A stretch of 64,000 bases of DNA from Paraburkholderia ginsengiterrae (lineage in GTDB: Bacteria > Pseudomonadota > Gammaproteobacteria > Burkholderiales > Burkholderiaceae), in contig NZ_LXKA01000198.1 of assembly GCF_001645125.1 (NCBI RefSeq), positions 58,424-122,423 on the forward strand, in the 5' to 3' direction. Of this stretch, positions 30,927 through 35,451 are shown piece by piece (position 1 is the first letter of the stretch; every line of letters starts with the position of its first letter). Made by a program: the position numbers and the translations under genes. The notes beneath the pieces were generated by a model that did not search any database, was not told the origin of the DNA, and saw only the letters and a list, made by a program, of their open reading frames with translations.

Positions 30927-31032
30927 TCACTTGATAAACCTGTCTGCGTGACATTGAAACTGCGGCGCCTTCCACCCATATGCCGATGGTGGCGCCAACC
31001 GAATCCTTCGTATCGAGCAGAACATACTTCGC

Positions 31033-32499
31033 ATGAATATCATCGAACCCAGTATCCGTAATCTCGCCGCCGCCAAGGACATCCTCCTGACGCCCTACGG
31101 TCTCGACGAATCCCTGCTCACCCGCACGCTCGCCGAAATCTTCACGCACCGCATCGACTATGCGGACCTGTACTTCCAGGCCACCCGCAGCGAAGCATGG
31201 AGTCTCGAAGAAGGCATCGTGAAATCGGGCAGCTTCAGCATCGACCAGGGCGTCGGTGTACGCGCCATATCGGGCGACCGAACCGCGTTCGCGTACTCGG
31301 ACGACCTGTCGCCCGAAGCGATTCGCCAGGCCGCCATCGCCACACGTGCGATCGCCAAGGCCGGCGGCGGCAAGCAGAAGATCAAGGTGGCCTCGTCGCT
31401 GACCGGCATCGCCGGGCGCGATCTGTACCTGCCGTCCGATCCGCTGCATTCGCTCGACGCCACCGCCAAGGTCAAGCTGCTCGAGCGCATCGAGCAGATG
31501 GCGCGCGGCCGCGATCCGCGCATCCAGCAGGTCATGGCCGGCCTCGCGGGCGAATACGACGTGGTGCTGGTGGCGCGCAGCGACGGCGGCTTCGCGGCCG
31601 ATATCCGTCCGCTCGTGCGTGTCTCGGTCACGGTGATCGCCGAACAGAACGGCCGCCGCGAAATCGGCAGCGGCGGCGGCGGCGGCCGCTTCGACTATGC
31701 GTATTTCACGGACGACGTGCTGTCCGGCTATGTCGACGACGCCGTGCATGCGGCGCTGGTGAACCTCGAAGCCCGCCCGGCGCCCGCCGGCGCGATGACC
31801 GTCGTGCTCGGACCGGGTTGGCCGGGTGTGCTGCTGCACGAAGCGATCGGCCATGGTCTCGAAGGCGACTTCAACCGCAAGGGTTCGTCGGCGTTCGCGG
31901 GGCGGATCGGCGAGCAGGTGGCGGCCAAGGGCGTCACCGTGGTGGACGACGGCACGCTGCCGAACCGCCGCGGCTCGCTCAATATCGACGACGAAGGCAA
32001 TCCGACCCAGTGCACCACGCTGATCGAAGACGGCATTCTGAAGGGCTATATCCAGGACACGCTGAACGCGCGCCTCATGAAGATGCCGGTCACGGGCAAT
32101 GCGCGCCGTGAATCGTATGCGGCGCTGCCCATGCCGCGTATGACCAACACGTACATGCTCAACGGCGACAAGGACCCGCAGGAAATCATCGAGTCCGTGA
32201 AGAACGGCCTGTATGCGGTGAACTTCGGCGGTGGCCAGGTCGACATCACCAACGGCAAGTTCGTGTTCTCGGCCTCCGAGGCGTACATGATCGAAAACGG
32301 CAAGGTCACCTACCCGGTGAAGGGCGCGACGCTGATCGGCAGCGGCCCGGAATCGCTCAAATTCGTCAGCATGATCGGGAACGACATGAAGCTGGATTCG
32401 GGCGTCGGCGTGTGCGGCAAGGAAGGCCAGAGCGTGCCGGTGGGCGTCGGTCAGCCGACGCTGCGCATCGACCGGATGACCGTGGGCGGTACGGCCTGA
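31033..32499 (+). CDS. tldD: Metalloprotease TldD
   Basis: A 488-aa protein of the TldD/TldE (PmbA) family, which degrades unfolded peptides and matures some peptide antibiotics such as microcin B17. The zinc site HExxxH is in [14 protein letters not shown]. The C-terminal Cys segment [12 protein letters not shown] supplies the further ligand expected in TldD rather than TldE. The TldE partner is not in this window. It is the last gene of the yhdP-nit-tldD run and is followed by a 15-bp-stem terminator. Confidence 0.96.
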
Positions 32500-32511
32500 T
32501 CAAGCAATCCA

Positions 32512-32562
32512 CGCATACTTCGTGCACGTATTGCACGAAGTATGCGGATTTTCCGCATTTTT
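32512..32562 (+). terminator. Strong hairpin terminator after tldD
   Basis: A perfect 15-bp stem, CGCATACTTCGTGCA / TGCACGAAGTATGCG (32512-32526 and 32532-32546), closes a 5-nt loop. It is followed by the T-rich run GATTTTCCGCATTTTTG. It begins 13 bp after the tldD stop and insulates the aroG leader promoter. Confidence 0.85.
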
Positions 32563-32574
32563 GCGCCCCGTGGG

Positions 32575-32603
32575 TTGTCAGCCGAGACTACCCGGGTTAT
32601 AAA
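32575..32603 (+). promoter_or_regulatory. Sigma-70 promoter of the aroG leader
   Basis: TTGTCA (32575-32580), a 17-bp spacer, and TATAAA (32598-32603); each hexamer matches consensus at five of six bases. The predicted start is near 32610, about 30 nt before the leader-peptide ATG. It is the best sigma-70 match seen in the window. Confidence 0.8.
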
Positions 32604-32640
32604 GTTACTCACCCTTTTTGACCTGCGACCTCATTTCGTC

Positions 32641-32709
32641 ATGTCCGCCAAGTTTTATTTTTACTTTTTTTGGCATCTCAGACCGCTGGCGGATCGAGAG
32701 GGGTGTTAG
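32641..32709 (+). CDS. Aromatic-rich leader peptide of aroG (22 aa)
   Basis: An ATG-to-TAG frame of 22 codons. Residues 5-11 read FYFYFFW: four Phe (all TTT), two Tyr and one Trp, with no other residue between them. Read like trpL or pheL, ribosomes would pause here when charged aromatic tRNAs are scarce. Segment CCGCCA (32645-32650, in codons 2-4) can pair with TGGCGG (32687-32692, in the 3' part of the frame). That second segment can instead pair with the 5' arm of the downstream terminator. No strong ribosome-binding site precedes the ATG, which is the weak point of the call. Confidence 0.8.
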   Translation: MSAKFYFYFFWHLRPLADREGC

Positions 32710-32767
32710 TGCACGCAGGACACCGAGAATTCCCGAAAAACCGCCAGCTAGCCTGGCGGTTTTTTTT
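32685..32767 (+). promoter_or_regulatory. Transcription attenuator: antiterminator and terminator of aroG
   Basis: The terminator stem AACCGCCAG (32739-32747), loop CTAGC, CTGGCGGTT (32753-32761) runs into eight T's (32760-32767). The competing antiterminator is GCTGGCGG (32685-32692) with CCGCCAGC (32741-32748), 8 bp, using the same 5' arm. A third pairing, TCCGCCA (32644-32650) with TGGCGGA (32687-32693), would remove the antiterminator. The terminator sits between the leader peptide and aroG, 137 bp before the aroG start. The pairings are read directly; the mechanism is inferred from classical amino-acid attenuators. Confidence 0.82.
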
Positions 32768-32903
32768 CGCCTCATGCCTTTGAAACCGCATTGAAACTTT
32801 TGTCATTGAAACCTTGTTGATTGTGCTCCGCTCTGGCGCTGCTGCTTCATCCCAGCCTTAGTTGCCCGCGCGAACACGCTACGAACCGATTCAGGAGAAC
32901 AAC

Positions 32904-33977
32904 ATGCCCCCGCACAATACCGACGATGTCCGCATCCGCGAATTGAAAGAACTCACGCCGCCCGCTCACCTGATCCGCGAATTCGCCTGCGACGAAACGG
33001 TGTCCGACGTGATCTACAACTCGCGCACGGCGATGCATCGCATTCTGCACGGCATGGAAGACCGTCTGATCGTCGTCATCGGGCCGTGCTCGATCCACGA
33101 CACGAAGGCGGCAATGGAATACGCGGGGCGCCTGGTCGAGCAGCGCAAGCGCTTCGCCGGCGAACTCGAAATCGTGATGCGCGTGTACTTCGAGAAGCCG
33201 CGTACGACGGTGGGCTGGAAGGGTCTCATCAACGACCCGTACATGGACAATAGCTTCAAGATCAACGACGGCCTGCGCACGGCGCGCGAGCTGCTGTTGC
33301 GCATCAACGAACTCGGCCTGCCGGCAGGCACGGAATACCTCGACATGATCAGCCCGCAATACATCGCCGACCTGATCTCGTGGGGCGCGATCGGCGCGCG
33401 CACCACCGAGTCGCAAGTGCACCGCGAACTGGCTTCGGGATTGTCGTGCCCGGTCGGCTTCAAGAACGGCACGGACGGCAACGTCAAGATCGCCGTCGAC
33501 GCAATCAAGGCCGCCTCGCAGCCGCACCATTTCCTGTCGGTCACCAAGGGCGGCCACTCGGCGATCGTCTCGACCGCCGGCAATGAGGACTGCCACATCA
33601 TCCTGCGCGGCGGCAAGACGCCGAACTACGACGCGGACAGCGTGAACGCCGCCTGTGCGGACATCGGCAAGGCCGGCCTTGCCGCGCGCCTGATGATCGA
33701 CGCGAGCCACGCGAACAGCTCGAAGAAGCACGAGAATCAGATTCCGGTGTGCGCGGACATCGGCCGCCAGATTGCTTCGGGCGACGAACGGATTGTCGGC
33801 GTGATGGTGGAGTCGCATCTGGTGGCGGGCCGTCAGGATCTGCAGGAAGGCTGTGCGCTGACGTATGGCCAGAGCATTACCGACGCCTGCATCGGCTGGG
33901 ATGAAAGCGTTGCCGTGCTGGAAGGCCTCGCCGAATCGGTCAAGCAACGGCGCGTGGCACGCGGCAGCGGCAACTGA
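32904..33977 (+). CDS. aroG: 3-deoxy-7-phosphoheptulonate (DAHP) synthase, AroG type
   Basis: A 357-aa class-I DAHP synthase that condenses PEP and erythrose 4-phosphate, the first step of the shikimate pathway. Conserved blocks are VVIGPCSIHD with the metal-binding Cys, VYFEKPRTTVGWKGLINDP, GARTTESQVHRELASGLS, VGFKNGTDGN, and the metal-ligand segments SVTKGGHSAI and MIDASHANSSKKH. It resembles E. coli AroG more than AroF, for example at the N-terminal DDVRIRELKELTPP, which forms part of the allosteric site. ATG 32904 follows AGGAG. It is preceded by a promoter, an aromatic leader peptide and an attenuator-like terminator, and is followed by its own terminator. Confidence 0.96.
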   Translation: MPPHNTDDVRIRELKELTPPAHLIREFACDETVSDVIYNSRTAMHRILHGMEDRLIVVIGPCSIHDTKAAMEYAGRLVEQRKRFAGELEIVMRVYFEKPRTTVGWKGLINDPYMDNSFKINDGLRTARELLLRINELGLPAGTEYLDMISPQYIADLISWGAIGARTTESQVHRELASGLSCPVGFKNGTDGNVKIAVDAIKAASQPHHFLSVTKGGHSAIVSTAGNEDCHIILRGGKTPNYDADSVNAACADIGKAGLAARLMIDASHANSSKKHENQIPVCADIGRQIASGDERIVGVMVESHLVAGRQDLQEGCALTYGQSITDACIGWDESVAVLEGLAESVKQRRVARGSGN

Positions 33978-34011
33978 ACTGAACCCACGCTTATCGCGGC
34001 GTGGTTTCCTG

Positions 34012-34044
34012 AAAAACCCGGCTCGTTTGAGCCGGGTTTTTTAT
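34012..34044 (+). terminator. Intrinsic terminator after aroG
   Basis: AAAAACCCGGCTC, loop GTTT, GAGCCGGGTTTTT, followed by further T's. A 13-bp perfect stem with a good U-run. Confidence 0.92.
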
Positions 34045-34122
34045 TTTGTTGGCCGAACGGACGAATGGTGCTCCACAAACCGCCTCTGTACCGTAACGAC
34101 TCATGACCCTGTCGAAAGTGAC

Positions 34123-34150
34123 TTGACGGGGGGCAGAGGTTACGTATAAG
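34123..34150 (+). promoter_or_regulatory. Promoter of the toxin-antitoxin pair
   Basis: TTGACG (34123-34128), a 16-bp spacer, TATAAG (34145-34150), about 22 bp before the toxin ATG. Such modules usually autoregulate at this position; no clear operator repeat was identified. Confidence 0.55.
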
Positions 34151-34172
34151 ATTTTGTACATGAAAGGCGACT

Positions 34173-34511
34173 ATGGAGCACGAAAAAGAAATCCGCTGGC
34201 TAGGCTCCAGCTATCACGATTTACTCGCCTTTCCAGAAGAGCCGCGTCGTCTGGCAGGGTTTCAACTGGGCAAGATTCAAGCGGGTCTGGACCCTGACGA
34301 CTGGAAGCCGTTTGATTCAATCGGCGCTGGAACGCGCGAGATCCGCATTAGAGACACAGACGGCATTTTTCGCGTTATGTATGTGACCAAGTTTGTGGAA
34401 GCGCTGTACGTACTGCATTGCTTCCAGAAAAAGGCGCAGAAGCTGGGCTCGCACGACCGGAAAATTGCTGAAACGCGATACCGCGCCATCACAAACAATA
34501 GGAAAACTTAG
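34173..34511 (+). CDS. RelE/HigB-like toxin (phage Gp49-like family)
   Basis: A 112-aa protein of the Gp49-like/DUF891 toxin family in the RelE superfamily, predicted to be a ribosome-dependent mRNA interferase. The family hallmark is the C-terminal YVLHCFQKKAQKL with the preceding IFRVMYVTKF strand, and RIRDTDGIFR. ATG 34173 follows AAGG. The antitoxin starts 3 bp after the toxin stop, so the toxin comes first as in HigBA. The pair is inserted between aroG and the cobalamin gene and is the clearest sign of acquired DNA here. Confidence 0.85.
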   Translation: MEHEKEIRWLGSSYHDLLAFPEEPRRLAGFQLGKIQAGLDPDDWKPFDSIGAGTREIRIRDTDGIFRVMYVTKFVEALYVLHCFQKKAQKLGSHDRKIAETRYRAITNNRKT

Positions 34512-34514
34512 CAA

Positions 34515-34847
34515 ATGACGATCGACACCAAAATTCGTCACGTGACCCAACCCGGGGTAAATCTGTTTCTCGAACTCGGTTTTTCCGCTGCGGAAGCAAA
34601 GCGCCTGCACGCCGCGTCGCAAAAGCAGATCAACGACACGCGGCTGCTCAAGGAGCAGCTCATGACAGAACTGTCCAGCTGGATTGAACAGCATCAATTG
34701 AAGCAGGCCGAGGCTGCCGAAATTCTGATGGTGTCGCGCCCGCGCGTGTCCGACGTGGTCAATAAAAAAACCACCAAGTTCACCATCGACACCCTCGTCG
34801 AAATGTTGAGCCGGATCGGCAAGCCGGTAACACTCGCGATCGGCTAA
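34515..34847 (+). CDS. XRE-family antitoxin (HigA-like)
   Basis: A 110-aa helix-turn-helix protein pairing with the toxin just upstream. The HTH is LKQAEAAEILMVSRPRVSDV, followed by TIDTLVEMLSRIGKPVTLAI, the typical COG5606/HTH_37 antitoxin tail. The N-terminal part (LGFSAAEAKRLHAASQ) is also typical of this antitoxin group. It should neutralise the toxin by binding and repress the operon promoter. Confidence 0.86.
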   Translation: MTIDTKIRHVTQPGVNLFLELGFSAAEAKRLHAASQKQINDTRLLKEQLMTELSSWIEQHQLKQAEAAEILMVSRPRVSDVVNKKTTKFTIDTLVEMLSRIGKPVTLAIG

Positions 34848-34896
34848 CGCGCATGACTTGCCGTGGCGTGCGTCTCTGGCGTCTGACGATGCGGGC

Positions 34897-35451
34897 CTAG
34901 ACGGCGCCGCGGTCGTGCTGCCAGAGCACGTCAGACCCGCCATCCGCGCGGTTCAGGACGCGCGCCAGCACGAACAGCAGGTCGGACAGCCGGTTGACGT
35001 ACTGGCGCGGCGCGGCATTGATTGCCTCGTGCTCGCCCAAGTCAACGATTGCCCGCTCGGCACGACGGCACACGGTGCGGCACACATGCGCGAGCGCCGC
35101 AGCACGCGAGCCCCCCGGCAGGATGAACTCCTTCAGCGGCGGCAAGGCCGCGTTGTAGTCCGCGAGCCAGTCATCGAGTTGGGCAAGATGCCGCTCGGTG
35201 ATCATCGTATGGCCGGGGATGCAAAGCTCGCCGCCCAGGTCGAACAGATCATGCTGGATCGCGACCAGCGCCGCCCGCACTTTATCGGGCAGTGCTTCGC
35301 ACAGCAGCACACCCAGGTTCGAATTGAGTTCGTCCACGTCGCCGATGGCGGCAATGCGCAGGCTGTCCTTGCGAACCCGGCTGCCGTCGCCGAGACCCGT
35401 GGTGCCGTCGTCCCCGGTGCGGGTGGCGATCTTGCTCAAGCGGTTGCCCAT
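34897..35451 (-). CDS. PduO-type cob(I)alamin adenosyltransferase
   Basis: A 184-aa enzyme that converts cob(I)alamin to adenosylcobalamin with ATP. The ATP-binding N-terminal TRTGDDGTTGLGDGSR is the PduO signature. The Arg/Glu site is in CRTVCRRAERAIVDLGE, and YVNRLSDLLFVLARVLNR closes the fold. Of several in-frame Met, ATG 35451 (MGNRLSKI) follows GGGAG and is chosen; ATG 35463 is the alternative. It is divergent from the FAD oxidase gene. No cobalamin riboswitch was seen upstream. Confidence 0.93.
   Translation of the reverse strand: MGNRLSKIATRTGDDGTTGLGDGSRVRKDSLRIAAIGDVDELNSNLGVLLCEALPDKVRAALVAIQHDLFDLGGELCIPGHTMITERHLAQLDDWLADYNAALPPLKEFILPGGSRAAALAHVCRTVCRRAERAIVDLGEHEAINAAPRQYVNRLSDLLFVLARVLNRADGGSDVLWQHDRGAV

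Follow-up and report, generated by a model that had tools for sequence, protein, structure and literature searches.

The window, i.e. the whole stretch of 64,000 nucleotides of Paraburkholderia ginsengiterrae that was analysed, belongs to a host genome of 8.5 Mb in 393 contigs. The AroG protein encoded in it is closest to Paraburkholderia, with 99% identity to P. lacunae among the named matches listed. Directly 3' of the preceding gene tldD a perfect 14-bp inverted repeat (GCATACTTCGTGCA, 32513-32545) can be read, which is separate from the putative attenuator and perhaps represents the terminator of tldD itself. A preliminary description of this DNA had named a promoter, an ORF of 22 codons, four pairing segments and a terminator running into eight T residues, and direct reading of the sequence locates all of them as claimed. 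The features of the locus are:

31033-32499: tldD (NF008006)
32575-32603, + strand: sigma-70-type promoter, TTGTCA (32575-32580), 17 nt, TATAAA (32598-32603)
32641-32709, + strand: leader ORF of 22 codons, MSAKFYFYFFWHLRPLADREGC, without a Shine-Dalgarno tetramer
32643-32650, + strand: segment 1, predicted anti-antiterminator pairing with segment 2, lineage-limited, GUCCGCCA
32653-32673, + strand: putative sensor run Phe-Tyr-Phe-Tyr-Phe-Phe-Trp, F5 to W11, TTT TAT TTT TAC TTT TTT TGG
32685-32693, + strand: segment 2, predicted 5' arm of the antiterminator, GCUGGCGGA (GCTGGCGGA)
32740-32748, + strand: segment 3, common to the predicted antiterminator and terminator, ACCGCCAGC
32753-32760, + strand: segment 4, predicted 3' arm of the terminator, CUGGCGGU (CTGGCGGT)
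32760-32767, + strand: terminator tract of eight T residues
32893-32897, + strand: AGGAG 5' of aroG
32904-33977, + strand: aroG, DAHP synthase, the putatively regulated gene; ATG at 32904; NCBIfam NF006723, 595 bits (cut-off 568)

Transcription would start at about 32610. An automatic scan returned neither a promoter nor a terminator (0 and 0) at the window leader. The promoter was missed because the rule of the scanner needs a T at position 6 of the −10 hexamer, and the terminator presumably because A:U pairs were absorbed into the stem and too few T residues were left; the latter was recovered by a separate hairpin search. Downstream of aroG, a small gene pair at 34173-34847 encodes a Gp49/DUF891 protein and a helix-turn-helix protein, a layout which we take to be that of a HigB/HigA-type toxin-antitoxin pair. 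The hairpin after aroG (33984-34045) gave a below-threshold Rfam match to the Burkholderia anti-hemB RNA (24.2 bits, gathering score 49.5) and is likely just a terminator.

The aromatic run is rare in its genome. A codon-degenerate pattern of the seven residues has one exact site in the 8.5 Mb and one more at two mismatches, and the reversed control pattern has none. Upstream of aroG, a leader ORF containing an aromatic run can be called in 79 of 80 named loci, these being the best 80 of a longer list of aroG relatives. The exception is L063 of the endosymbiont Vallotia, where the run is cut short and segment 2 and the terminator are off the pattern. A match to TTG...TATAAW was found 5' of the leader ORF in 59 of the 79 named loci tested. 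No aromatic short ORF was detected upstream of the second DAHP synthase gene of the window's genome. The named loci were assigned by hand to the window's family, f1, which we take to be Burkholderiaceae.

For a survey of the order 200 genomes were drawn, of which 154 bear AroG; in 130 of these the best AroG copy was used, and a short ORF with at least four aromatic residues in nine codons plus a GC-rich terminator was sought upstream of aroG. This rule holds for 42 of the 130 upstream regions, in 14 of 32 families (40 of 130 at five or more aromatic residues), and fails in 88 genomes and 18 families. Controls at five or more aromatic residues gave none in 2600 mononucleotide shuffles and none in 130 reverse complements. 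At least four leaders missed by the rule (G093, G133, G171, G186) were found by a covariance model built from 62 leaders; within the window's genome this model matches at full length nowhere except at the leader. With a cut chosen after the list was seen (full length, E ≤1.2e-7), 104 of 399 genomes of the order have a match, and 103 of these 104 strong full-length matches, in 14 families, share the strand of aroG and precede it by 26-158 nt. The overall tally of 153 of 399 contains largely partial, terminator-only matches, which are excluded from the 104. A weaker full-length match in f10 (L275) also precedes aroG. Outside the order, four strong full-length matches (three in f63, one in f68; E ≤2.1e-13) were found in a search of 369 genomes of the class, some of the order included, with matches of E 1e-4 to 0.01 set aside; all four are upstream of aroG. 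Judged from these matches, the leader element is homologous and widespread across the order.

Fifty-seven of the 103 genomes are outside the draw that gave the unnamed part of the model, and three of these 57 (f1) could coincide with named loci. A second set was composed of 53 of the 57 new genomes (without G204, G280, G291 and G320) and the four genomes beyond the order; of its 57 loci, 55 could be parsed (not L318 and L325), three f1 loci included.

Some matches of the model lie before other genes. The one strong full-length match not before aroG, in G117 (f28), precedes another, uncharacterised gene. In f28 four full-length matches (L268-L271, G117 among them) show a related leader on the hit strand at about bases 400-640, with a run ending ..YFYWY.. 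followed by a terminator, in front of a gene for a protein of about 205 aa; the protein of L269 (206 aa) has no Pfam match, and L272 is a terminator-like match only. In f22 (L273, L274) a Leu-rich short ORF and a terminator precede a small gene. The next gene of L274 reads, by a motif, presumably as leuA, and in f22 the model has probably caught a leucine attenuator. Genome G301 (f13) has two leader copies (C105 and C119), each before its own aroG copy; this genome (89% completeness, 5% contamination) may mix two strains.

Conservation within the leader differs between the run and segment 2. For a codon count of the run all 79 named loci were placed by segment 2, not by peptide, and the 75 in frame were used. 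At run positions one to six, 444 of 450 codons encode an aromatic residue, and at position seven 59 of 75 do. Over the seven codons 78 synonymous differences stand against 60 non-synonymous ones, many of which are Phe/Tyr swaps; the other two frames give 22/152 and 27/157. Just 3' of the run the residues are variable within the window's family, and outside it little of the leader peptide is kept except the aromatic content. All 71 loci that carry an L-A-D/E motif over segment 2 encode its Leu by CTG and its Ala by GCG. In L011, L014, L037 and L051 (of the 79 named) the frame is changed between the run and segment 2 and the segment-2 nucleotides are retained; alignment A1 excluded these four loci. 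Codon variation in the run and frozen nucleotides in segment 2 thus indicate conservation of the run at the protein level and of segment 2 at the RNA level, and the codon counts argue for coding selection on the aromatic run.

The composition of the run bears on what could be sensed. In a set of 121 loci, which omits L063 (no callable leader ORF) and in which L083, L085 and L087 look like duplicates of L039, L076 and L082 (same lengths and ranges), Phe occurs in the run of 121, Tyr in 116 and Trp in 81; in the second set Trp occurs in 24 of 55. Sensing of all three aromatic amino acids, as proposed in the preliminary description, therefore agrees with the run of the window but holds as a common property for Phe and Tyr rather than for Trp.

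Selection at the RNA level is indicated for segments 2, 3 and 4. In the 62 leaders the core GGCGG/CCGCC/GGCGG is almost invariant, with 99.0% of the 2:3 core cells paired, and covariation is located at the positions flanking it. The 2:3 helix has 91.5% of its cells paired and 16 two-sided cells (shuffled mean 7.4), the 3:4 helix 97.9% and 22 (5.4 in shuffles); both two-sided counts were reached by none of 500 shuffles, which relatedness by itself can beat. Not above shuffles are two of five measures for 2:3, namely pairs with two-sided change (491/500) and further pair types (401/500), and for 3:4 the further pair types (491/500). One position across the three segments reads jointly T-A-T or C-G-C, the C-G-C version occurring in families f3, f10, f12 and f39. 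Among 60 readable leaders segment 2 has C in 8 of 16 with G in segment 3 and in 4 of 44 with A (Fisher p 0.0014), and in 48 of the 55 second-set loci, with seven unreadable or mixed triples left out, in 8 of 12 versus 5 of 36 (p 0.0010); these Fisher tests ignore relatedness too. The alignments thus support selection on and covariation of segments 2, 3 and 4 as RNA.

In the window the duplex energies are −14.8 (1:2), −18.4 (2:3) and −18.5 kcal/mol (3:4), and the 2:3 pairing is better than 199, the 1:2 pairing better than 198 of 200 shuffles. Among relatives, 110 of 121 loci have a 2:3 pairing better than 95% of shuffles, and in the second set, where the result is weaker, 36 of 55 loci do. The 1:2 pairing reaches this level in 54 of the 121, nearly all of them of the window's family. 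In 26 aligned sequences of this family it shows no two-sided compensatory change, only one-sided changes with some pairs lost, and outside the family the helix is generally undetectable. Such an anti-antiterminator helix is typical of the E. coli trp type. The comparison of upstream regions which had been proposed as a check thus lends strong support to an aromatic-run leader peptide with exclusive 2:3 and 3:4 pairing before aroG and finds these segments covarying, but it gives no covariation for 1:2, and the putative segment 1 is largely limited to the window's family.

The distance of the stop codon from segment 2 varies as well. It ends 14-17 nt 3' of segment 2 in many loci and lies 20-30 nt past it in Cupriavidus, Pandoraea, Ralstonia and several Caballeronia. 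Because a ribosome footprint measures about 28-30 nt, a ribosome at the stop would not mask segment 2 where the stop lies 20-30 nt past it, and masking from the stop codon, previously put forward, does not hold as a general route. On the leader stop codon of the window, a ribosome would cover segment 2 at most in its 3' part. A ribosome with the Trp codon (32671) in its A site would extend forward to about 32683-32684 and thus end right before segment 2, which begins at 32685.

Folding was calculated with an assumed position of the ribosome's front. For the complete leader the outcome is always the terminator, whether the ribosome is placed on each of the seven run codons in turn, on the stop or left out. 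If segment 4 is omitted, the 2:3 helix forms when the ribosome stands on the first or the last codon of the run, and segment 3 stays unpaired when it stands on the stop. The switch must therefore be kinetic, which is the usual description of attenuators. Since 2:3 also forms without segment 4 and without a ribosome, an untranslated leader in lineages lacking segment 1 would read through.

We consider it very probable (about 0.9) that the leader is a ribosome-mediated transcription attenuator controlling aroG. Comparison of sequences shows that the parts exist and are conserved, that the run is under coding selection, that segments 2, 3 and 4 are selected as RNA and covary, and that the element goes with aroG. 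The joint departure of run, segment 2 and terminator in L063 of Vallotia and the absence of a detected TrpR family member also speak for attenuation. An upstream ORF rich in codons for the product, an intrinsic terminator between this ORF and the structural gene, an exclusive 2:3 antiterminator with covariation and a downstream gene that makes the amino acids to be sensed are all found. The course of events that we infer, from transcription start, translation and stalling to the direction and size of the response, would be as follows. RNA polymerase would transcribe the leader of about 150 nt, and a ribosome would follow on the short ORF. With charged tRNA-Phe and tRNA-Tyr (here tRNA-Trp too) plentiful, it would pass through the run. 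Its movement, joined in the window's family by the 1:2 helix, would keep segment 2 away from segment 3; the terminator would then form from segments 3 and 4, and aroG would stay untranscribed. If any of these tRNAs is scarce, the ribosome would halt in FYFYFFW with its leading edge just before segment 2; segment 2 would then pair with 3 before 4 is made, and transcription would continue into aroG.

Near-identical leader peptides among the closer named relatives would also be expected if the ORF encoded a functional small protein and the hairpin were only its terminator. This is highly improbable, however: beyond the run the peptide varies, and 4 of the 79 named loci use a different frame there, while the segment-2 nucleotides stay, other families keep little besides the aromatic content, and aroG is the next gene in 103 of the 104 strong matches. 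The end of tldD lies about 240 nt before the hairpin, and the latter might thus be the terminator of tldD, or a chance terminator, next to an incidental ORF. Against this stand the promoter-like sequence 5' of the ORF in most named loci, the separate hairpin after tldD at 32513-32545 and the combination of ORF and terminator in none of the 2600 shuffles, which make it extremely improbable. Release of a leader RNA is itself predicted by attenuation, and the terminated leader could act mainly in trans as a small RNA, like rnTrpL of Sinorhizobium, with attenuation in cis secondary; according to the source passages S. meliloti offers a precedent (PMC7298713). We regard this as very improbable, because the best conserved stretches are the cis parts and the stretch from the stop codon to segment 3 is largely variable in sequence and length.

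A further property of the putative attenuator concerns the start of translation. A Shine-Dalgarno tetramer before the leader ORF is found in 0 of 80 f1 loci and is absent in 40 of 41 non-f1 loci and in 49 of 55 second-set loci; for comparison, 63 of 80 named loci have such a tetramer before the AroG match. The trpL leader of E. coli has a Shine-Dalgarno sequence. A −10-like hexamer ending 5-10 nt before the ATG, from which transcription would begin at the AUG or close to it, occurs in 19 of 41 non-f1 loci (control windows 7, 3 and 3 of 41) and in 29 of 55 second-set loci (controls 3, 2 and 5). In f1 it has this position in 1 of 80, and in named loci with a promoter match the −10 sits 34-39 nt upstream in 42 of 59. 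Outside f1 the leader ORF thus often looks leaderless.

A tentative extension, to which we give somewhat less than an even chance, is that the leader is an old, order-wide sensor of the combined supply of aromatic amino acids, placed where the shikimate pathway begins. In most lineages it would do without segment 1 and have a leaderless ORF without Shine-Dalgarno sequence, and its signal would be tuned from lineage to lineage by gain or loss of Trp codons in the run. In such a sensor an ORF starting at or near the first transcript base without Shine-Dalgarno sequence would tie ribosome loading to the promoter.

No member of the TrpR family was detected in the window's genome, and a full-length relative of TyrR reaches 450 bits, below the cut-off of 576 of NF008085. 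The attenuator would give a genome without detected TrpR a means of regulating the first committed step of aromatic biosynthesis, and it would add a widely conserved family to the few DAHP synthase attenuators found in the literature. Trp, segment 1 and a 5' UTR are each present in some leaders and absent from others, a natural series that allows a test of the need for each part. The leader may also serve as a simple handle to deregulate aromatic production in laboratory strains of Paraburkholderia or Cupriavidus.

The element appears to be missing from the collections searched, in agreement with the preliminary description, which knew of no account of it. Rfam 15 gave no match at the gathering score in 20 leader loci, no match up to E 5 in window positions 31000-35000 reached its gathering score, and over the window leader only a weak sroD match on the opposite strand was seen. 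No description of an aroG leader for this group was found in the open-access literature searched, where the peptide strings FYFYFF and AKFYFYF are absent as well; Vitreschak 2004, Panina 2001 and the Merino website may list the site. The main text of PMC2965389 contains no aroG, aroF or 'aromatic', and PMC1262725 no aroF or aroG. In the passages of PMC1173090 attenuators are given before tyrA clusters, and an aroG leader is not among them.

Several known systems are related in kind. The trp, pheA and pheST leaders of E. coli share the mechanism class, a codon run with alternative antiterminator and terminator (PMC11802643, in part), but belong to other genes and respond to a single amino acid. 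Repression of E. coli aroF and aroH acts through TyrR/TrpR according to passages of the same source (PMC11802643). For the aroF leader of E. coli and Shewanella attenuation with sensing of Tyr-tRNA is a hypothesis, and a run like that of the window is not mentioned in the source passages (PMC2659441, PMC8632094). The predicted uORFC-13-1 motif upstream of aroF (24 representatives), compared here by description and not by alignment, resembles the window leader in a uORF with at least one Phe codon and an adjoining terminator before a DAHP synthase gene, but is described in the source passages from Acholeplasma and environmental sequences only (PMC8632094). The trpL leader of S. meliloti has an ORF beginning with the very first transcript base (PMC7298713), as is predicted for many of the non-f1 leaders, and differs from the aroG leader in its Trp signal, its target trpE(G) and its host group, the Alphaproteobacteria. 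A further counterpart by description is aroR of Corynebacterium glutamicum, a Phe-Tyr-Phe leader peptide before the DAHP synthase gene aroF; unlike the window leader it is actinobacterial and its run lacks Trp, and in the source passages Phe limitation raises transcription and Tyr availability is without effect (PMC11802643, PMC4046766). Attenuation at the pathway entry, earlier regarded as a distinct strategy, had thus already been described, and because DAHP synthase attenuation is known from aroR-aroF, the aroG leaders are best regarded as a new, well-supported family of a known kind.
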